From Atopobium deltae (GTDB lineage: Bacteria; Actinomycetota; Coriobacteriia; Coriobacteriales; Atopobiaceae), in assembly GCF_001552785.1 (NCBI RefSeq), contig NZ_KQ959487.1:186575-250574 (forward strand): 64,000 nucleotides of DNA, in the 5' to 3' direction. The position numbers and the translations under genes were made by a program. Positions 35,820 through 46,428 of this stretch are shown here, in pieces; the stretch's first letter is position 1, and each line of letters opens with the position of its first letter. The notes beneath the pieces were generated by a model. It was not told the origin of the DNA. It made no database searches and saw only the letters and a program-made list of their open reading frames with translations.

Positions 35820-36731
35820 TTACTCCTCGGTAGATGAAGCGATAGCATCGCTCGAAGCGATAGCATCGCTCGATGCGTTGGTATCTTCCAGATAGCGCGC
35901 CAAAAATTCGCGCGTACGCTCGTGCGCGGGATTCGTAAAGAGCGTATGCGGATCGCCCTGCTCGGCAATCACGCCTTTGTCCATGAAGAGCACCTTGTCC
36001 GAGACGTTTTTAGCAAAATCCATTTCATGTGTGACCACTACCATGGTCATGCCCTGGGCCGCGAGGTTGCGCATGACATTAAGCACTTCGCCGACGATTT
36101 CGGGGTCAAGTGCGCTGGTCGGCTCATCAAAAAGCATGAGCTCGGGCTCCATGCATAGAGCGCGCGCGATGGCGACACGTTGCTTTTGACCGCCCGAAAG
36201 CGAGCTAACCGACGCTTTTGCGAAGTCTACAAGCCCCACAGCTTCAAGGTGCTCAAGCGCCACTCGTTCGGCTTTGTCCTTGGACATTTTTTTGAGGACC
36301 GTTGGCGCCAAAGTGCAGTTATCCAGCACGTTAAGATTGTTGAACAGGTTAAAGCCCTGAAACACCATGCCAATTTTTTCGCGGAGTTTATCGACATTCA
36401 CGTGGCGAGCCGCCAGATCCTGCCCATGGAACCACACGTGGCCCGAATTGGGCGTTTCGAGCAGATTAATGCAGCGCAGCAGGGTCGACTTGCCGCTTCC
36501 CGAGGTACCAATGATGGTTACCACCTCGCGCGGCATAACCTCAAGGTCAATGTCTTTGAGCACCTCGTGGGTGCCAAAACTTTTACGAAGGTTCTCGATT
36601 TTAATAACGGGTGTTACCTGCGCGTCGCGTGTGGCGTTCGCATCCTGCACGCCATTCTCGGCACCAGCCTCCGCACCCGCAGCCTCGGCGGCCGCCGTAC
36701 GAGACGGACGAAAACTACGAGATGTCACCAT
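35820..36731 (-). CDS. Polar amino-acid ABC transporter ATPase
   Basis: A 303-residue ATPase of the GlnQ/HisP family. Walker A is GTSGSGKST, the signature LSGGQKQR, Walker [15 protein letters not shown] and the H-loop THEMDFA. A 45-residue Ala-rich N-terminal extension is unusual. The C-terminus ends in a repeated SSDAIA, coded by a 15-bp duplicate (about 35835-35872). It overlaps the permease stop (TAATG) and runs into the amidohydrolase gene. Confidence 0.93.
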
Positions 36732-38272
36732 TATTTTTCCTCCTCCCAGAAAGCATCCTTGTTGCGCTTATCGACCACCTTAAACGTGTGGGCGATCTTC
36801 TCTTGCGCCGTCTTCAGGAATTTTTTCTTTTCTTGGGTGGTTGTATGCTCATGCATCCACGCATCTTTTTGCGCCTGCTGCGCGTCTTTTTTGCGCTGCG
36901 CCTCGGCCTTTTTCGCCGCACGCATATGAGCTTTCATTTCGGCACGCGCACGTTTCCGTGCGAGCTCCTCGGGCGTCAACGCCTGTACCTCCACCTTGCG
37001 AGGATCGGCTTGGGCCCCCGCCACACCCTGCGTGTGGATCATATCCGATGTCGATAAGACCAATCCAGGCGACGGCACTTCCATGCGCCGTGCCAGCGCG
37101 CTCAAAATTCTTGATGCGATCATCGTCAACACAAGGTAACACAGGGTGGCGACGGCATAGACCTCCAGCTGACGATAATAAATGCCCGCGACCGTCGTGG
37201 TAGCAAACATCAGGTCAAACACGCCGATGACCGATAAGACCGACGAGTCCTTAATATTGACAACGAGCTCGTTGGAAAGCGCGGGGATCGCATTTTTGAT
37301 GCCCTGCGGAAACACAACGCGCGTCATCGATTGCCATTGCGATAAGCCCAACGAACGCGCCGCCTCATTCTGGCCCTTATCGACAGCCTCGATGCCACCG
37401 CGAAGGACCTCCATCATGTACGCGGTTGAGTTCAACGAAATCGTTACGAGGCCAGCCACAAAGGTGGACCACAGCGCGCCTACCTCAGCCGCCGTCATAC
37501 CACCCGAGCGCAAAATCGAAAAGCCCGCAAAGTAAATGAGCAGCGACTGCACCATCATCGGGGTGCCGCGCACGACCGCCGAATAAAACTTCGCGAACCA
37601 CACGCCCACCGTCTTCAAAAAGCGGACAAAATCGTTGTCGGGGCGGTCGATTTGTTGCGTGCGCAAAAATACCAGCAGCACCGCTAAGAAAAATGCGATG
37701 ATCGTACCAAAGAGTGCCAGTTCAATGGTGGCGAGAATACCGCGCAAAAAGACGCCTCTCCCCTGGTACACCATGTAAATAGCCCCTGGCAAAAAGCCTT
37801 GCGGATTCGCATCGGCTCGCACGCTGCCCGCCACAATAAAGGCGAAGCTCACGACAATGCGGTCGATACAAAAAATCAGAGTGATGCCCAACACGAGCAT
37901 TGCGTACAAGCGCACAAAACTCTTGAGTGGCTCTTTGACAAAAATGGACGTCCTCGCGTAATCGCGCCAACTCACGAGCTTATTGAGCAACGCAAACGAT
38001 GCCAGTCCCAAAAAAGCGAGGAGCACATAGTATAAGATGCACTCAAACGAATAAAATGGCGCCAAAAAACTCCACGGACTACGAACCTGGCTCGAAAGCC
38101 ACATTCCAATACCAGCAACAACACTGGTACTTAAAAAAACGTACCGATGGTCTGCGGCAAGAAAACGCACAATGGGTGAGGCAGGTGCCTCATCGGGGAT
38201 CGCAGCAGACGCCTTGGTAGTCACCGCGGCGGTCCTAGCTGGAAGTGGTTCTTCGCCTTGTTGATTATTCAT
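36731..38272 (-). CDS. Polar amino-acid ABC transporter permease with long extensions
   Basis: A 513-residue membrane protein. The central GlnP/HisM-type permease domain has [11 protein letters not shown], then [20 protein letters not shown] (the ATPase-contact loop) and [18 protein letters not shown]. About 190 residues with several extra membrane segments precede it. A highly charged Lys/Glu/Ala tail of about 100 residues follows. Typical family members are near 220 residues. AGGGGAA precedes the ATG. Together with the binding protein upstream and the ATPase downstream it forms one importer. Confidence 0.9.
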
Positions 38273-38485
38273 TTTGTATTCCCCTTATTAGAATGCAATC
38301 TGAAACTTGCAAAACCTTGCATTGGTAACGCACAAACTGGTCGCGCACAGCAGCTGGTCACATGCAAAACGCGCAGCACAACGGCAAAGCCCACGCACAA
38401 ATGGGAAAGCTCACGCGCCACGCATGGCAGCACAAACGCCTCGAGCGCTCAAACGCTCGAGAAACAGCTGCACTACCCCTGCGTA
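38273..38485. other. Spacer with hairpin between binding-protein and permease genes
   Basis: CTCGAGCG (38440-38447) and CGCTCGAG (38454-38461) form a perfect 8-bp stem with a 6-base loop, 24 bases after the binding-protein stop. With no T-run it may stabilise the upstream message or reduce read-through, giving more binding protein than permease. Confidence 0.4.
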
Positions 38486-39457
38486 TTACGTTGGTTGCCG
38501 ATCAATGCACGCATCAAAAATTTCTTTGCGCCTATCGAGCGATACTCCTTTAAAAATCTTATTAAGTTTGGCAAGAAGCTCGTCCTGACCCTTCTTAATG
38601 CCTGCGTTACAGGGGATGGTCTCTTTAAAGCCTTCTCCCTTGGCAAACGAAACGGCAACAAGATTGGGATTGACGCGTAAAAGTCCTTTTTCATTCTCGG
38701 TATTAAAGGTAATGGCATCGCAAGTACCTTGATTGAGTTGAGAGAGTTGCGAGGGCACCGACTCAACAGGTGTAAGGTGTTTTACCTGCGGAATCTCGTC
38801 AATAACGGTGTCGAGCAAAGTGTCTTTTTGGCCAAGTACCGCCGCGCCCGAAAAATCTTTAAGCGAGCGCGCCGATGCGTAACGAGAGTCCTTTTTCACG
38901 AGCAGACCAAAGCCACCCTCAAAATACGGATCAGAAAAATCAATAGCTTGACGGCGCTCATCGGTTGTCGACATGCCCGCCATAATAATATCGATCTGAC
39001 CGTGGTTCAGCGCGTCGATAAGCCCCGAAAAGGCCATCTTCACAGCGACTGCTTCCAGGCCAAATGCCTTCGCGACAATTTTGGCAAACTGCACGTCGTA
39101 GCCATCAGCATAAGCGCCTTGCACATTTTGGATGGGGATGGTCGTGTCGGATGCGGTGGAAGTTTGCCAGTTATATGGCGCGTATGCAGCTTCCATGCCT
39201 ACACGAATAATTTTGCCATCGCCAAAGGAAATGCCGTGCGATTTTTTCTTGGGATTTTTTAATAAATCAACAGTACCTTCTGGTGCGGGACCACAACCCG
39301 CTAATAAGGAAAGACCAGTGGTAGTTATGAGCAACGTGCCAGAAAGCGTAAGAAACGTACGCCGAGAAAACATATGGGGACCAGCGGTGGGTAGCACCCG
39401 GTATGACGTGTTTGGCGCAGATCTATGTGACGAACCATCATTTTTGCTATGAGACAT
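38486..39457 (-). CDS. Polar amino-acid ABC transporter substrate-binding lipoprotein
   Basis: A 323-residue family 3 solute-binding protein. The N-terminus contains a twin-arginine motif (SRRTFLTLSG) and a lipobox (LSLLAGC), so it is probably exported folded by Tat and lipid-anchored. Ligand-pocket signatures include RVGMEAAYAPYNW and ADGYDVQFAKIVAKAFG. DIIMAGMSTTDERR and IDFSDPYFEGG are also typical. GAAGGAAG precedes the ATG at 39457; about 28 residues lie before MFSRR, and that internal ATG is an alternative start. The ligand, perhaps glutamine or a basic amino acid, cannot be fixed. Confidence 0.9.
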   Translation of the reverse strand: MSHSKNDGSSHRSAPNTSYRVLPTAGPHMFSRRTFLTLSGTLLITTTGLSLLAGCGPAPEGTVDLLKNPKKKSHGISFGDGKIIRVGMEAAYAPYNWQTSTASDTTIPIQNVQGAYADGYDVQFAKIVAKAFGLEAVAVKMAFSGLIDALNHGQIDIIMAGMSTTDERRQAIDFSDPYFEGGFGLLVKKDSRYASARSLKDFSGAAVLGQKDTLLDTVIDEIPQVKHLTPVESVPSQLSQLNQGTCDAITFNTENEKGLLRVNPNLVAVSFAKGEGFKETIPCNAGIKKGQDELLAKLNKIFKGVSLDRRKEIFDACIDRQPT

Positions 39458-39613
39458 TTCTTCCTTCTTTCTAGCAAAAAAGTGTGTTATCCCTTCCGCA
39501 TACACAGCCGAAGAAAACCCATTTTTCTTCCCCTTGCAAACAATGCGTGAAAGCTCTGCATGTTATTACGCTAGTGTAGCGATCTTTTGGGCCAAAAACG
39601 ATTAAATTTTATA

Positions 39614-39712: not shown

Positions 39713-39769
39713 GTGATCTTATCGCCAGGCGCGTGATCTTCTCGTCGAGCGCTCGATCTTATCGCCAAG
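39713..39769. repeat. Three tandem 20-bp repeats carrying the CTTMTCG word
   Basis: GTGATCTTATCGCCAGGCGC, GTGATCTTCTCGTCGAGCGC and a shortened TCGATCTTATCGCCAAG follow one another (39713-39732, 39733-39752, 39753-39769). The third runs over the tsaD stop codon at 39759. Each holds GATCTT(A/C)TCG, the word over-represented through the chromosomal part of the window. A single similar unit, GATCTTCTCGTCAGGCGCTC, lies in the gap at 19240-19259. Confidence 0.75.
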
Positions 39770-42320
39770 ATTTCGCAATCGGCGTGTACGTGTCTGACCA
39801 GGTCCCAAGCGTAGCGTGGGGATCGGCGTCCAGCGTGAGGGGCACAAACTGCTTCGCCTTGTAATTGCGCAGGGCACAGACAGCAATCATCGCGCCATTA
39901 TCGCCACAGACCGACATCGGGGGCACGGTCACGCGCACACCCATAGCACCAAACTTTTTGCGATACTCTTCGCGGAGCTGCGGATTTGCCGCCACGCCAC
40001 CGCCAACACAAAAGTCGCGGACGCCTGTTTCCTTAACTGCGGTGATCGCCTTGGCAACCTGGACATCAATGACAGCCGCCTCGAAGGAGGCCGCCAGATC
40101 GGGCAGGTTAATGGGACGACCCGCCTTGTTCTCGCCCTCAATGTAGGTTATGACTGAGGTTTTAAGGCCAGAAAGCGAAAAACGATAATCGTGGCTGTGC
40201 ATCATCGCGCGCGGAAAATGAATGGCTTTTTTGTTGCCTTTGGCAGCAAGCTTGCTGATCACGGGACCGCCCGGATAGCCAAGGCCCAACGCCTTCGCGA
40301 CCTTATCAAACGCCTCGCCCACCGCATCGTCAATGGTGGTGCCCAAAATGTCGTAATCGCCCCAGTCGCGCACGTGCACGAGCATGGTGTTGCCGCCCGA
40401 GACAAGACTCGCAATAAACGGCGGCTGCAGATCGGGCGTCTCGAACAAATTTGCCAACAGATGCCCCTCGAGATGGTGTACAGCAATAAGCGGCAAGGCA
40501 GCACCCGCACAAAGTCCCTTCGCAAACGCAACGCCCACAACGAGCGCTCCCACAAGGCCAGGACCTGCGGTAACACCAACAGCGCTTAAGTCAGATGGTT
40601 CCAAGGTATTGCAGCCGAAGTGCGCTCCTGCTTGCGCCATGAGCTCTTCGAAGACACCCACGATGGCTTCTACATGCTTACGAGAAGCGATCTCGGGAAC
40701 GACGCCGCCGAAGCGCGCGTGAAAATCGAGTGATGTTGCCACGACGTTGCCACAGATTTGTCCTGTGGAGTCGATGATGGCCATGCCTGTTTCGTCGCAG
40801 GACGATTCTATCGATAAGACCAAGTCACCTGCAGCTTTGAGTGCATCGAGCGTTTTTTGGCTGCGCGCCTCTGCCACGATGGGCCAGGGGCGGATTGATG
40901 CCTGTGGGCGTGCTGCAACGAAAGCGGAGGTTGCTGTGGGCGCCGTGGACGCTGTGGACGCTTGGTCGAGCCCTGCCAGCGGCAGCACCGAGCGCATAAT
41001 CAAGGCATCGCGAGAAGGCCCATAATACTGAGGACGTGTTCCTACCTGCACAAAGCCGAGCTTCTCGTACAGCTTACGAGCGGCTGTGTTGTGCTCATAT
41101 ACCTCAAGCGAAATGGTTTGCGCATTGAGCATGTGCGCATCGTACGCAAGGCGCGCAATCAGCCGTGCCGCAATGCGGTGACGACGATGGTCAGGATGGA
41201 CATCCACCGTCAAAATTTCAAAATCATCGCCCGCGAGCATGCCGCCCGCCACCGCAATAATGGTTCCCGTATCGTGCGCCACCCACCAACTGCGACCATC
41301 CGAGCTAAGCTCATCCGCAAAGTTCTGATAGGTCCACGCCTGATGCGGCGAGCCCTCAAAGCAAAGCTCATCGAGCTTGTGCACCGCTTCAAGATCGTTA
41401 ATGCTCATCGGGCGAAATTGCAAGTGCCGATCAGCCAGCACGTCAGCCGTCCCCGTCACAAAAACCGAGGCAGGTGCCTGCATGCCAAGGCGTTTACGCT
41501 CGTTTTCTTCTGCATCCGACAAGCGCGTATAGACGGGCAACACCAGCGCTGGGTCACCATTGGCTCTATCGAGAAGAACACCTAAGCTTGCGTATCCACG
41601 CATTAGGCCTTCGGATGAGGGATACCAGAGTTTCTCGTCATCGCACACATATAGGCCTGCCTCTTCAAAAGAGGCGCGATGTTTAAGAAGTCCGTCGCCC
41701 ACAAGTTGCAAGCTCGATGCTTCGGGCAGCTCAGCCCATTTTTGCGCCGCCTGGCGCGCTTTACACACCGTCTCGGTTGGAAAACGGCGATGTGCACCTG
41801 CGTCATCAAGGGTATAGAGCCCTGGGTACACTTCGCCGCGCATGGCATCGGCAACGACGCCAACGTTTCCGCGCAGGCCCGCTTTCCACGCTGACCACGC
41901 AACGCTATCGAGCGTAGAGGCTCCATACAGCGCGACCTTTGCGCTGCAGGCAAGGCCCTTGGCAGTGGCAATACCAATACGCACGCCCGTAAACGAACCA
42001 GGGCCGCGGCCCACCACAATGCCCTGCACGTCGCTCATTGTAAGACCCACATCGGCAAGCGCTTGTTGCGCCGTGACAATAAGTTCGACGTTTGCCTGCC
42101 GTCTGCACGCATGATCGCGCACCGCAAGCATGTTGACCTGATCGTGCTCGTGGGTGTGCGTGCGGTTCCACTGTGCTACGCCGCAGACCAACATATCGGA
42201 TGAGGTATCAATAACAAGCACGGTTTGTGTCTGCGGTTGTGGTTGCGGATCGTGTCCTAATTGCGCTTCGTGCTCTCGTTGCACTTCGTGTGGTAGTTCT
42301 GCCATATATCCTTCATTCAT
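39759..42320 (-). CDS. TsaB-RimI-TsaD triple fusion (t6A synthesis and ribosomal acetylation)
   Basis: One 853-residue frame encodes three proteins usually separate. Residues about 34-290 are TsaB (VLVIDTSS, GRGPGSFTGVRIG). About 300-455 are a RimI-type GNAT acetyltransferase (LTVDVHPDHRRHRIAARL). From about 498 on is TsaD (SIESSCDETG, metal-binding HHLEGH, SGGNTMLVHV). TsaB-TsaD with TsaE transfers threonylcarbamoyl to A37 of ANN-decoding tRNAs; RimI acetylates proteins such as S18. Ala/Ser/Thr-rich linkers join the parts. tsaE ends 14 bases upstream. The ATG at 42320 or 42305 could be the start. No stop or frameshift interrupts the fusion. Confidence 0.93.
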   Translation of the reverse strand: MNEGYMAELPHEVQREHEAQLGHDPQPQPQTQTVLVIDTSSDMLVCGVAQWNRTHTHEHDQVNMLAVRDHACRRQANVELIVTAQQALADVGLTMSDVQGIVVGRGPGSFTGVRIGIATAKGLACSAKVALYGASTLDSVAWSAWKAGLRGNVGVVADAMRGEVYPGLYTLDDAGAHRRFPTETVCKARQAAQKWAELPEASSLQLVGDGLLKHRASFEEAGLYVCDDEKLWYPSSEGLMRGYASLGVLLDRANGDPALVLPVYTRLSDAEENERKRLGMQAPASVFVTGTADVLADRHLQFRPMSINDLEAVHKLDELCFEGSPHQAWTYQNFADELSSDGRSWWVAHDTGTIIAVAGGMLAGDDFEILTVDVHPDHRRHRIAARLIARLAYDAHMLNAQTISLEVYEHNTAARKLYEKLGFVQVGTRPQYYGPSRDALIMRSVLPLAGLDQASTASTAPTATSAFVAARPQASIRPWPIVAEARSQKTLDALKAAGDLVLSIESSCDETGMAIIDSTGQICGNVVATSLDFHARFGGVVPEIASRKHVEAIVGVFEELMAQAGAHFGCNTLEPSDLSAVGVTAGPGLVGALVVGVAFAKGLCAGAALPLIAVHHLEGHLLANLFETPDLQPPFIASLVSGGNTMLVHVRDWGDYDILGTTIDDAVGEAFDKVAKALGLGYPGGPVISKLAAKGNKKAIHFPRAMMHSHDYRFSLSGLKTSVITYIEGENKAGRPINLPDLAASFEAAVIDVQVAKAITAVKETGVRDFCVGGGVAANPQLREEYRKKFGAMGVRVTVPPMSVCGDNGAMIAVCALRNYKAKQFVPLTLDADPHATLGTWSDTYTPIAKSWR

Positions 42321-42334
42321 GCTCTTGTAAGAGC

Positions 42335-42871
42335 TTATACATCAAAGCGCTGAGCAAGTTGCTCCACTAATTGAGAAGCCCGTGCCCCGCGAGGGTGTAA
42401 GCTAATACGACGCGGTGGCTCTATACCAGCTGCTACCTCGCTATCAAGACGCGTGAGATACACATCAAGCCCGTCGTCGCCCAGTTCATCCAAAAATTGT
42501 TCGCCCCATTCGATAACACAGGGACCATCTGCCCCCAGCACATCCCAAAGACCTGTATCTCCGAGTTGCTCCGCATCGTTTAAGCGATATAAATCAAAGT
42601 GATACAAGGGCAAGGTTGTGCCCTCGTAGACCATCTGAATGGTAAAGGTTGGACTCGTCACTTCTTCATGCACGCCCATCCCCTGTGCAATACCCTTGGT
42701 CATTTGCGTTTTCCCGGCACCAAGGTCTCCCGTTAAAACGAGAACATCGCCTGCCTGCAAGCAAGCACCAAGCTGTATGCCAAAGTCACACGTTGCGTCG
42801 CAACTCGTCGATATATAGGTATGAGCATCGCACTTTTTGATGCCCTCAGATGGCAGAGCTTCTGATGTCAT
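42335..42871 (-). CDS. tsaE: tRNA threonylcarbamoyladenosine biosynthesis ATPase TsaE
   Basis: A 178-residue P-loop ATPase that drives the TsaB-TsaD complex. Walker A is GDLGAGKTQ, followed by EVTSPTFTI, then LYHFDLYRL and CVIEWGEQFLDEL. It is a little longer than usual at both ends. AAGAGGCACC precedes the ATG. It sits between alr and the fused tsaB-rimI-tsaD gene, so all tRNA t6A partners except TsaC are in one operon. Confidence 0.94.
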   Translation of the reverse strand: MTSEALPSEGIKKCDAHTYISTSCDATCDFGIQLGACLQAGDVLVLTGDLGAGKTQMTKGIAQGMGVHEEVTSPTFTIQMVYEGTTLPLYHFDLYRLNDAEQLGDTGLWDVLGADGPCVIEWGEQFLDELGDDGLDVYLTRLDSEVAAGIEPPRRISLHPRGARASQLVEQLAQRFDV

Positions 42872-42882
42872 ATTGGTGCCTC

Positions 42883-44055
42883 TTACACGTAGACCTTCTC
42901 GAGGCGCATGCCAAAGTTGCAGGTCACCTCATAGTTAATGGTGTTTCGCAGTGCAGCTATATCGTCGGCCGTAATGCTGTAGTTATCGTCTGAACCCATA
43001 AGAATGACGTGGTCACCGATCGCAACGGGACGCTGCTGATTGTAACTGCGACTGGTGAGGTCGACGGCAAACATGCACTGGTCCATGCAAATGCGACCAA
43101 CCTGTTGACAGAGCTGACCTGCGGCAATAACCTGCATCTTGTTTGAAAGCACGCGCGAAAGGCCATCGGCATAGCCCACGGGAATGGTTGCAATTTGTAT
43201 ATTTTGCTTAGGCACACGATAGGTAAAACCATAGCTCACGCCATCGCCGACCGCAGGAATATGCGTACGTGTGACGCGCGCATGCACACTCATCACAGGG
43301 CGAAGATCAATGTAGGGCATGGTGGTTTGTGCAGCATGCAGACCATACAAGCCAATGCCAACGCGGCACATGTCGTGCTGCGTTGCGGGATGCAAAATGG
43401 TTGCAGGCGTATTGTTGCAATGCACTAATCCGTGCTCAAGACCTGCGTCCTCAAGCGCCGAAACCGCATTCATAAAACGAGAATACTGCAGGTCAAAGTC
43501 CCATCCCTGCAGCTCATCGGCAGTAGCAAAGTGTGTAAAAATGCCCGCACACTCCAAACCGCGATGAAAATCGATCATTTGACGAAATTCCAACACGTCT
43601 TGCGGCTGCAAGCCAATGCGGTTCATGCCTGTGTCAACAACCAAGTGGTACGATGCCACGCGATGCGCAAGTGATGCTTGTTCGCCCAGCGCAAGGGCAA
43701 AATCCTTAGTATAAACGGAGGGCATGATGTTATATTCCAGCAGGGCAGGGATCGCCGTGGCGGGCGGTTCCGATAAGACCAAGATGGGCTTGGTAATACC
43801 AGCCTTGCGCAGGGCCACACCCTCCAAAACGGTCGCAACCGCAAATTGATCCGCCCCCGCGTTTGCCATGATTTTTGCGCAGGTCGCGGCCCCATGCCCG
43901 TAGGCGTCGGCTTTGACAACACACATCATTTTTTTGCGAGGAGCAATGCAATTGCGCCAAGCGCGGGTGTTATAGCGCAAGGCTCCCTGATCAATTTCTA
44001 CCCACGACCAGCGGGTATCGGGCGCATAGCTTGCATCGGGAGAATAGCTTGCCAT
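42883..44055 (-). CDS. alr: Alanine racemase
   Basis: A 390-residue PLP enzyme making D-alanine for peptidoglycan. The PLP lysine is in CVVKADAYGHG and the catalytic tyrosine in GVSYGFTYRVP. RVGIGLYGLHA and GRICMDQCMF are typical. The ATG at 44055 has GGAGC about 9 bases upstream, inside the end of the nnr gene (stop at 44060), implying coupling. The longer frame from 44109 is not supported. Confidence 0.95.
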   Translation of the reverse strand: MASYSPDASYAPDTRWSWVEIDQGALRYNTRAWRNCIAPRKKMMCVVKADAYGHGAATCAKIMANAGADQFAVATVLEGVALRKAGITKPILVLSEPPATAIPALLEYNIMPSVYTKDFALALGEQASLAHRVASYHLVVDTGMNRIGLQPQDVLEFRQMIDFHRGLECAGIFTHFATADELQGWDFDLQYSRFMNAVSALEDAGLEHGLVHCNNTPATILHPATQHDMCRVGIGLYGLHAAQTTMPYIDLRPVMSVHARVTRTHIPAVGDGVSYGFTYRVPKQNIQIATIPVGYADGLSRVLSNKMQVIAAGQLCQQVGRICMDQCMFAVDLTSRSYNQQRPVAIGDHVILMGSDDNYSITADDIAALRNTINYEVTCNFGMRLEKVYV

Positions 44056-44059
44056 AACG

Positions 44060-45772
44060 CTACAGCTCCTTATGCTTGTGAGATCTTCTGAGTTCGCTCG
44101 TGGCATCAATGTCGTTGGAGGTGTTTTGTGCGTCAGCGGTCACGGCGCTCACAGCAGAGTCACCATCGTCCGTGCCGCCCACCGCGACCAGGTGCTCCAA
44201 CGCGTCGGTTGCGCGCCCAAGCTGCTGCACTAAATCGTTGGCCATAACGCCGCGAGTTCCAAAGGTCTTCTCGGCAAGAAGGGCACAACGAGCATGAATC
44301 TCGCAGGCAAAGGCGCAGAACAGCGGCAACTGAGTCGGATCGATGGCTGCTTTTGCGAGGCGCGCGGCAATAATGCCCGCAAGCACGTCGCCCGACCCAG
44401 CGGTCGCCAACGATACGGGACCTGGCTTGGGGAGCACAGCCGACTCGACGCCCACGCAGGCAGTTGCGTTGCCTTTTGCCACAATGGTAAATTCCGAGCC
44501 GCCGTCGGCCCACACAATGCGACGCGCCGCCTCGAGTGCCGAGGTCAACGAGTCGGGAGGCGTGTCGGGAAGCCCCATGAGGCGTCCCAGCTCACGGCGG
44601 TGCGGCGTCAAAATCAAGGGTGCATTGCGGCGCACAAGCTCGGGGTAATTATCAAGGCGATTCTCGGTAATGCGCGCCAAACAATTCAGGGCATCCGCAT
44701 CCATGACAAGCGGCACCTTGACGCCCAACAGGCCCGAACACAGCGAGGTGGTCGCGGCCGTTACGCGTATGCCGGGGCCCACCAACACACAGTCTGCGCG
44801 TTCGGCAAGTTTGACGATAATATCGTGTGCTTCTTCCGAGAAGGTCCCCGTGTCTGCATCGTACGGGCAGGGAATGACAGGGATTTCGACAAGTTGTGTT
44901 TGTACGATACCTGCAATGCAAGCAGGTACGGCCAAGCTCACATAGCCCGCACCAGCGCGTGCTGCGGCACGTGCTGCCAAAATTGCAGCTCCAGGATAGC
45001 GAGAAGATCCCGCCACGACCAATACACAGCCTCGTCCATACTTATCGGCCACAGCAGTGGGCATGGGTAAGATGTCCAAGTAATCGCTTGTCTCGCAACG
45101 CCAAGCAACGGGATCGGCCTTTAAGACAAACTCTTCGGTTTGTTCGGCAAGCGGTGCAATGACGATGGAGCCGCAAGCATCACGGCCCTTATCGGCCAAA
45201 AGGCCTGGCTTGAGCGCAATCATGGTTACGGTGACATCGGCGTAGATGCAAGCGCCGTGTATGTGGCCCGTCTGCGCCGAAAGTCCGCTGGGAACGTCGA
45301 CAGCCACTGCAGGCACGCCGCTCATGTTGATAGCATCGATCCAAATATTAAAAGGTGCGGTGGGCGTCTCGCGAAAACCAGTGCCGAGCATGGCGTCAAC
45401 CACAACGTCTGTCGTGAAGAGAAGCTCCTCGAGCTGGGCACGTGGAGGCGCAACTTGCACAACCACACCTGCTGCTACCGCACTGCGGGCAGCCACGAGC
45501 GCCAAATCGCTCTGCAGCGACTCGGGTGCCACGGGGCTCACCACCGTAGGAACAATGTCGTAGCGCAGCAACTCTTCAGCTGCAACCCAACCGTCACCAC
45601 CGTTGTTACCCATACCTACAAAAATAAGTGCTCTACGGACACCATCCATATGCGCCACTTCTTGTGCAACCGCCAAACCAGCACGGTGCATAAGCTCGGA
45701 AATACTTATGCCAGAGCGATTCAAACTGGTTTCGACGAACTTAATGTCTTCGACATTAAGAACTGGTTGCAT
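44060..45772 (-). CDS. nnr: Bifunctional NAD(P)H-hydrate epimerase/dehydratase
   Basis: A 570-residue metabolite-repair enzyme. The N-terminal epimerase (YjeF_N) has ALIFVGMGNNGGDGWVAAEEL. The C-terminal ADP- or ATP-dependent dehydratase has GPGIRV, LVMDADALN, ILTPHRRELGRLMG and TAGSGDVLAGII. Together they restore NADH and NADPH from their hydrates. The last 50 residues are low-complexity and carry the Shine-Dalgarno of alr. AAGGAG in the end of acpS lies 12 bases before the ATG. Confidence 0.94.
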   Translation of the reverse strand: MQPVLNVEDIKFVETSLNRSGISISELMHRAGLAVAQEVAHMDGVRRALIFVGMGNNGGDGWVAAEELLRYDIVPTVVSPVAPESLQSDLALVAARSAVAAGVVVQVAPPRAQLEELLFTTDVVVDAMLGTGFRETPTAPFNIWIDAINMSGVPAVAVDVPSGLSAQTGHIHGACIYADVTVTMIALKPGLLADKGRDACGSIVIAPLAEQTEEFVLKADPVAWRCETSDYLDILPMPTAVADKYGRGCVLVVAGSSRYPGAAILAARAAARAGAGYVSLAVPACIAGIVQTQLVEIPVIPCPYDADTGTFSEEAHDIIVKLAERADCVLVGPGIRVTAATTSLCSGLLGVKVPLVMDADALNCLARITENRLDNYPELVRRNAPLILTPHRRELGRLMGLPDTPPDSLTSALEAARRIVWADGGSEFTIVAKGNATACVGVESAVLPKPGPVSLATAGSGDVLAGIIAARLAKAAIDPTQLPLFCAFACEIHARCALLAEKTFGTRGVMANDLVQQLGRATDALEHLVAVGGTDDGDSAVSAVTADAQNTSNDIDATSELRRSHKHKEL

Positions 45773-45781
45773 AGCGCATCA

Positions 45782-46351
45782 CTACTCCTTGCGTGAGATA
45801 TTGTCGTTGTCACTGCGGGCGGCGTTGTTATTAGTATTATACGTGCTCTTACATGAGCTGACATTCTCAATTTGCATATGCTCAAGCTCGTCGAGGACGC
45901 TGCGTGCCTCCCTAAACGAAGCTGCGAGCTCGGCTTTTTGATCGGATTTCTCGTCGAGCTTGGGGCGCACCTGCTCAGTCACGGCAACAGCATTGGCAAT
46001 AGCGACCTCGTGGGTGAACGAAAGCGAAAGTGCGATTTCTAAAACCCCCTGCTCTTGCGCAATCTGCGCCGCTTTTCTTTGCAACAGCGCCAAGGGCTTT
46101 CCGTAACTGTCATGCGAAACCGAAATATCCTGTGCGCTAATCCCTTGCGAGAATCCCGTTCCTAGCGCTTTGAGTATGGCTTCCTTCGCTGCAAAACGGC
46201 AGGCAAAATGCTGTGCGGGGCGCGCCTTTGCCTGGCAATAGGCCCGCTCTTCGTCGGTAAATAAACGCTTCGCAATGCCAGGCGTGCGCGCAAGGGCACG
46301 CTCCATGCGAGCGATTTCAAAAATATCGACTCCTACACCTGCAACCGCCAT
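45782..46351 (-). CDS. acpS: Holo-[acyl-carrier-protein] synthase with extended C-terminus
   Basis: Transfers phosphopantetheine from CoA to acyl carrier protein. The family signatures are GVGVDIFEIARMER and CRFAAKEAILKALGTG. The product is about 189 residues from the ATG at 46351, whereas AcpS is typically near 120-130. The extra C-terminal 60 residues are Glu/Asn/Ser-rich, ending in KSTYNTNNNAARSDNDNI, and resemble no domain I know. No strong binding site precedes the start, so a slightly different start is possible. It follows glmS by 78 bases. Confidence 0.9.
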   Translation of the reverse strand: MAVAGVGVDIFEIARMERALARTPGIAKRLFTDEERAYCQAKARPAQHFACRFAAKEAILKALGTGFSQGISAQDISVSHDSYGKPLALLQRKAAQIAQEQGVLEIALSLSFTHEVAIANAVAVTEQVRPKLDEKSDQKAELAASFREARSVLDELEHMQIENVSSCKSTYNTNNNAARSDNDNISRKE

Positions 46352-46428
46352 GACCTTCTCGCCTATTCCACCTCGTGTGCTCGAACGAACTACTCGACCG
46401 CCGTACTCATCCAACGCGCTCAAACGAA

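Follow-up and report, generated by a model that had tools for sequence, protein, structure and literature searches.

The stretch of DNA analysed here (64,000 nucleotides, below called the window) encodes TsaB, a RimI-type GNAT acetyltransferase and TsaD as one polypeptide. Is this chain genuine, how did it come about, and does the acetyltransferase take part in the tRNA modification carried out by its two neighbors? In t6A synthesis TsaC makes TC-AMP, TsaDB transfers the TC group and TsaE resets the enzyme. This kind of fusion is already known: a yeaZ::rimI::ygjD triple fusion of Coriobacterium glomerans was published in 2013, and a RimI link was predicted from it (SyntTax, PMC3571937). As described there, it has the same three domains in the same order and in one frame, with yjeE (tsaE) and alr in the same gene contexts; section 13 of that account names one species and does not treat order-wide spread, a two-step origin or RimI loss (PMC3571937). 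What we add is the history of the fusion across the order. In the literature searched, mostly outside subscription journals, we found no account of either the two-step origin or the loss of RimI.

One frame and its three domains

The frame runs from 42320 to 39759, starts with ATG and specifies 853 residues (stop to stop, 860 codons); the plus-strand reading of 39759-42320 has 14 stops. The initial annotation, which described a single uninterrupted 853-residue TsaB-RimI-TsaD frame, had the coordinates exactly right, and its three domains are matched by NCBIfam and Pfam; it left out the strand, which is minus. Two of the domains pass the NCBIfam equivalog score: TsaB (TIGR03725, 158.8 bits; cut-off 69.3) and TsaD (TIGR03723, 412.9 bits; cut-off 296.1). 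The middle domain falls just under the TIGR01575 cut-off of 86.4 (80.9 bits with NCBIfam, 85.7 in a genome profile search), and so we call it RimI-type; the domain or gene at the same place scores 93.7-127.6 bits in the relatives G065, G148, G140, G347 and G575, and 81.5 in G118.

Table 1. Features of the fusion gene and of the gene run upstream of it (positions in the window)
Feature	Residues	Coordinates	Strand	Basis
TsaB - RimI-type GNAT - TsaD, single ORF		39759..42320	minus	ORF list; Pfam; NCBIfam; whole-genome search
TsaB domain	34-244	41589..42221	minus	NCBIfam TIGR03725
TsaB C-terminal tail, now mid-chain	260-279	41484..41543	minus	invariant columns, 49-row alignment; PxYxR
RimI-type GNAT domain	309-442	40995..41396	minus	TIGR01575; RimI Glu and Tyr columns kept
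Flexible RimI-TsaD linker	452-476	40893..40967	minus	pLDDT <50, AlphaFold2 model
TsaD domain	501-820	39861..40820	minus	TIGR03723; HxxxH and Asp ligand columns kept
tsaE, ATPase subunit, 14 bases upstream of the fusion		42335..42871	minus	TIGR00150; PF02367
alr, alanine racemase, upstream, same gene run		42883..44109	minus	PF01168/PF00842
NAD(P)H-hydrate repair enzyme (YjeF_N + Carb_kinase), same gene run as tsaE/alr		44060..45772	minus	PF03853/PF01256
acpS-type phosphopantetheinyl transferase, same gene run as tsaE/alr		45782..46423	minus	PF01648

There are no stops at the domain joints of the window frame. We considered and rejected a sequencing or frameshift artefact: the protein is matched in among genomes of the window's family, 138/140 (101/101 good-quality ones), and 35 of the 36 loci read in that family are open throughout as one frame. 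At neither joint does a Shine-Dalgarno-like sequence precede any ATG, GTG or TTG in a simple motif test, so separate products via internal starts are not favored. Scans for promoters and terminators yielded sites no commoner than in shuffles (5 vs 4.5 and 7 vs 8.4, respectively).

We found no duplicate of tsaB or rimI elsewhere in the genome. With the whole fusion protein as query, the genome (1,447,260 bases, 97% complete) returned only the protein itself at E 0.001. Its RimI profile search gave the fusion and one weak second GNAT (20.6 bits), and its TsaB profile search gave the fusion only, once in TsaB and once, weakly, in the paralogue TsaD. A second tsaB, tsaD or RimI-like gene was thus not found in this genome; for rimI and tsaB this check had been proposed with the initial annotation. 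TsaE does lie immediately upstream, as noted there, and passes its equivalog score (TIGR00150, 110.3 bits; cut-off 60.1). Downstream of the fusion, likewise on the minus strand, 35820-39505 holds a family-3 solute-binding protein (Pfam) and two frames resembling, by eye, an amino-acid ABC transporter permease and ATPase.

The residues expected of each domain are largely in place. In TsaD, the HxxxH motif and the C-terminal Asp, which we take to be metal ligands, are conserved in the window protein and wherever a row is not cut: the first His in 167/167 rows, the second in 166 (one row is cut there) and the Asp in 165 (two rows cut). SGGHT is usual in bacterial TsaD, and Asn at its His position is known from archaeal and eukaryotic Kae1. 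The window protein has SGGNT at this site (residues 641-648), as do 33/36 rows of its family (f1), 18/28 of f2 and 9/20 of f4-f9 (SGGNT was seen in f1, f2, f5, f6 and f9); it is absent from the 40 rows of other classes, all of which have SGGHT (40/40). Since the TIGR03723 cut-off is passed, SGGNT is, judged by sequence, a variant within the TsaD family; we nevertheless count the Asn against our explanation.

In the GNAT domain E406 and Y418 are invariant in the 49-row alignment, and both the Glu and the Tyr of these columns, presumably the catalytic residues of RimI, are present in the window protein. Among the 121 Coriobacteriia domains covering the sites (the partial row L172 was left out), the Glu is kept in 118 and the Tyr in 117: both are lost in L045 (f6) and in L063 and L173 (f9), the Tyr alone in L079. 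The acetyl-CoA loop of the window protein, RRHRIA, has Arg where most relatives have Gly, which also counts against our explanation. We dropped the idea that loss of this Gly marks a dead RimI: Arg or Lys is found there in unfused relatives too.

TsaB carries its C-terminal PxYxR tail as PVYTR (residues 262-266), and the motif was found in 97/100 unfused and 88/92 fused TsaB read. In the order's fused proteins the chain continues for a median of 596 residues beyond the TsaB domain, versus 33-50 in unfused TsaB. In Aquifex the tail reportedly regulates the binding of tRNA and of TsaE (PMC11648230); if it acts likewise here, its function must not need a free end, for it lies mid-chain with the motif kept. 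The statement of the initial annotation that the fusion constrains models of assembly holds in this sense only, one that it did not name.

Distribution and stepwise origin

Since a whole-protein match alone does not prove fusion, architectures were read in the DNA of each locus with HMMs built from the three domains. The loci, a hand-chosen subset of the genomes searched, some ending at contig edges, comprise 36 from the window's family (f1), 5 from f3/f10, 28 from f2, 23 from f4-f9 (f2-f10 being the codes of other families of the order), 38 from other orders of the class and 40 from other classes; f13 and f17 are further family codes.

The triple fusion is the usual arrangement across the whole order. 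The protein is matched in 294/297 genomes sampled from the order (245/245 good-quality ones), and surveying the loci, as had been suggested for Coriobacteriia, shows three domains in one frame in 28/28 loci of f2, in 5/5 of f3/f10 and, adding f1, in 68/69 of these main families; the exception, L146 (f1), carries TsaB in one frame and RimI-TsaD in another. Named loci with triple fusions include those of Atopobium, Olsenella, Thermophilibacter, Collinsella and Adlercreutzia. The 23 loci of f4-f9 divide into 14 triple fusions, four RimI-free TsaB-TsaD fusions (L135, L136, L137, L140) and five fragments (L138 and L139 from one genome, L172 and L173 from another, and L158).

Of the 38 loci from other orders of the class, 27 carry a RimI-TsaD fusion with TsaB as a separate frame nearby; the others are nine triple fusions, one TsaB-TsaD (L151) and one cut locus (L093). 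L151 is a weaker case of TsaB-TsaD, because in its family, f13 (L150, L151, L152), the recognizable part of TsaB covers no more than the first ~100 positions, in frames that are otherwise fused; these may have a shortened TsaB. In other classes of the phylum, the TsaD frame stands alone in 39/40 loci, with TsaB as a separate frame in 37/40 and RimI in 38/40; the remaining TsaD locus (L107) has RimI-TsaD. Long open frames (740-990) in other actinobacterial classes were considered as triple fusions and rejected: the loci show separate genes. A scan of named genomes, mostly Bacillota, gave no triple fusion among 65 loci (L202-L266) and one RimI-TsaD (L205, a MAG named Actinomycetales). L107 and L205 thus place RimI-TsaD outside Coriobacteriia, as convergent, transferred or misnamed cases. 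Because other classes and Bacillota keep the three mostly unfused, the older state is that of tsaB, rimI and tsaD as neighboring genes, in agreement with the description of the three in the initial annotation as commonly coded side by side.

We then placed the architectures on a TsaD tree (149 rows, quick method, SH-aLRT support only; 17 f1 loci left out). Coriobacteriia rows form one clade (SH-aLRT 100), and 71 of the 74 triple fusions fall within one 79-row sub-clade (SH-aLRT 97). The remaining three (L065, L070 and L086, all of family f17) fall among rows of the RimI-TsaD type, which on this tree implies at least two additions of TsaB to RimI-TsaD. RimI-free TsaB-TsaD needs at least four changes, and still does if only starred branches are trusted. 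The fusion is, as these sequences indicate, a two-step construction: RimI-TsaD came first and TsaB was added later.

In several uncultured families RimI then decays or vanishes while TsaB and TsaD stay joined, to judge from their frames. Family f6 has RimI intact (L044), decayed (L045) and absent (L137). In RimI-free frames 72-112 residues separate TsaB from TsaD, a gap that a 150-residue GNAT would not fit, and in the corresponding order-level genomes (G142, G150, G144, G160 and G159, all drafts) no match elsewhere reaches the RimI cut-off, the best being 52.8 bits. What stays constant in the chain is thus the TsaB-TsaD tether; RimI, though usually intact, is a passenger that can be dispensed with.

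Other known proteins share parts of this design. RimI-TsaD proteins of other Coriobacteriia orders carry RimI on the TsaD N-terminus, as here, with tsaB still a separate adjacent gene. The tsaB-rimI fusions reported for Mycobacterium leprae, Bordetella and Achromobacter join TsaB to RimI as in the window protein but leave TsaD outside (PMC4926160, PMC3157347). A t6A transferase of the Kae1/TsaD family is likewise part of a multi-domain chain in TsaN (8ide, a modular enzyme of TsaD-TsaC-SUA5-TcdA type) and in MJ1130 (2vwb/3en9), an archaeal Kae1-Bud32 fusion, but with other partners and with neither TsaB nor an acetyltransferase. E. coli TsaDB (4ydu), Thermotoga TsaB2D2E2 (6n9a) and Aquifex TsaD-TsaB (8iey) have the same t6A-core domains and folds in separate chains, without RimI.

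A probable tethered t6A core and its passenger

An AlphaFold2 model of the fusion has a pLDDT of 86.2 and a pTM of 0.77, with low confidence (pLDDT <50) at the joints 279-298 and 452-476. Searched with Foldseek, the model hits TsaD chains best and TsaB chains next, from the TsaDB complexes of E. coli, Salmonella and Aquifex.

A likely explanation, in which as a whole we have good confidence, is that the chain is a tethered t6A core with a largely independent RimI-type passenger. The two subunits that make up the bacterial t6A-transferase core would sit on one polypeptide, its N-terminal TsaB domain pairing with its C-terminal TsaD domain as the separate proteins do, either in cis or in trans, with the acetyltransferase in the connector. 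TsaE, coded by the adjoining gene, would supply the ATPase that resets the cycle. We infer that the chain remains uncut, that its pairing resembles that of free subunits and that the GNAT domain, an apparently intact RimI-type N-alpha-acetyltransferase working largely alone, acts most likely on ribosomal protein bS18; its RimI score under the equivalog cut-off leaves the substrate unsecured and counts against this part. The domain would have become attached since its gene lay between tsaB and tsaD. In favor of this explanation we also count the published link of free RimI with TsaD in mycobacteria and, weakly, with TsaB in E. coli (PMC4926160). Free TsaB and TsaD are reported to form homodimers also, through the heterodimer interface (PMC10792529), and so the tether would favor TsaB-TsaD pairing over TsaB-TsaB or TsaD-TsaD, with both made together. 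Fixing TsaB:TsaD at 1:1, as the initial annotation had it, is weak as a novelty: unfused complexes, described as TsaDB dimers or TsaD2B2 tetramers, are already equimolar (PMC11648230).

Is the joint itself useful? The three genes, co-oriented and tightly packed, may have lost their stop codons by chance, the product being simply tolerated. In the phylum and in Bacillota, tsaB, rimI and tsaD normally lie side by side, the fusion followed gene order, and RimI-TsaD fusions occur outside the class too; however, re-splitting is rare (1/69 loci in f1/f2/f3/f10) and TsaB remains joined to TsaD even where RimI has been lost, and we hold such neutrality to be rather unlikely, though a real contender. 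Quite improbable, in our judgment, is that the chain is translated whole and then cut at its two flexible joints (or that TsaD is made from an internal start too), giving ordinary separate working proteins. Proteolysis may act at these low-confidence joints of the model, and linker lengths do vary among f1 and f2 relatives (TsaB-RimI 42-94, RimI-TsaD 21-90 residues). Against this stand the start-type codons at the joints, with no Shine-Dalgarno-like sequence before them, and the four order-level loci where RimI is gone yet TsaB and TsaD share one frame, which argues that the joint itself is valuable.

The acetyltransferase could instead have been recruited into t6A synthesis, where it would regulate or acetylate TsaB, TsaD or TsaE and not ride along as a ribosome-targeted passenger. 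RimI was fused to TsaD first and TsaB followed, across the whole class, and the free RimI of M. tuberculosis is reported to interact with TsaD and to acetylate a TsaD N-terminal peptide in vitro, whereas the folded TsaB-TsaD complex was not acetylated (PMC4926160). The t6A core is, moreover, kept where RimI is absent or lacks its Glu and Tyr (L045, L063, L173), and we regard recruitment as unlikely.

A further step beyond the tethered core with its passenger is that selection keeps the covalent TsaB-TsaD pair, with a TsaB C-tail lacking a free end, and that the inserted acetyltransferase is cargo, repeatedly inactivated or deleted in uncultured relatives; we offer this tentatively, giving it slightly less than even credence. 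If it is true, each lineage with a decayed or missing RimI should have t6A without RimI and, should bS18 acetylation be RimI-dependent, no bS18 acetylation. Within the order one tethered t6A enzyme exists with RimI intact, with RimI decayed and without RimI, so that how far RimI, a free TsaB tail or separate subunits are needed can be compared directly. The fusion also shows cleanly how genes that have long been neighbors can join step by step. The importance is modest: a fusion that is published and order-wide no longer surprises, and it may rank in interest below the side finding that follows.

An uncultured relative with apparent UGA-to-Trp recoding

As a group marker, the fusion helps to place odd MAGs, and it exposed one that seems to use UGA as a sense codon. 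In the MAG 'Coriobacteriia bacterium isolate S38M_St_18' (G787), the triple fusion at L193:2986-5292 (JAUNQF010000020.1) has seven in-frame TGA and no other stop; six of the seven are at Trp positions of the window protein, by eye from translations. The genome (stretches L275-L340, about 1.09 Mb) has a GC of 39%. In 1,088,186 bases of it, ORFs of ≥100 aa give a coverage of 0.766 and a mean length of 248 aa under code 11 versus 0.945 and 416 aa under code 4; as a control, coverage of the window is 0.913 under code 11 and 0.911 under code 4. On another contig, the frame of a GH67 glucuronidase contains 14 TGA, 12 aligned with Trp of 1gqi and the others with Phe and Tyr. A codon count based on the window, by contrast, is noisy: over all frames, spurious ones included, it puts 11 TGA at Trp and 14 at other residues.

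RF2 over the cut-off was not found in G787, where the best match has 272.5 bits versus 467-472 for RF2 in three comparison genomes; it resembles the second, sub-cut-off match of 279.7 bits in the window's genome. At L278:4024-4119 (minus strand) lies a UCA-anticodon tRNA that ARAGORN labels SeC, with a 7-pair acceptor, A1-U72, discriminator G and a long variable arm. By the identity elements that we assume for tRNA(Trp), it may be a Trp-type UGA decoder.

The best match among 138 f2 genomes is G811 (99% identical, genus g386), with seven TGA in its fusion gene; the other f2 rows have none there, among the matches listed. An uncultured MAG lineage of the order (G787/G811) thus appears, from its sequences, to read UGA as Trp. 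Against this, it is a single MAG lineage (G811 being 75% complete), and absence of RF2 could reflect incompleteness. Passages on UGA-to-Trp recoding in two papers place it in four phyla, with no mention there of Actinomycetota (PMC13092985, PMC8629427). Under code 4, G787 also has frames of 4,891 codons (L287:5325-20000, plus strand) and 5,924 codons (L275:2172-19943, minus strand), which would encode very large proteins.
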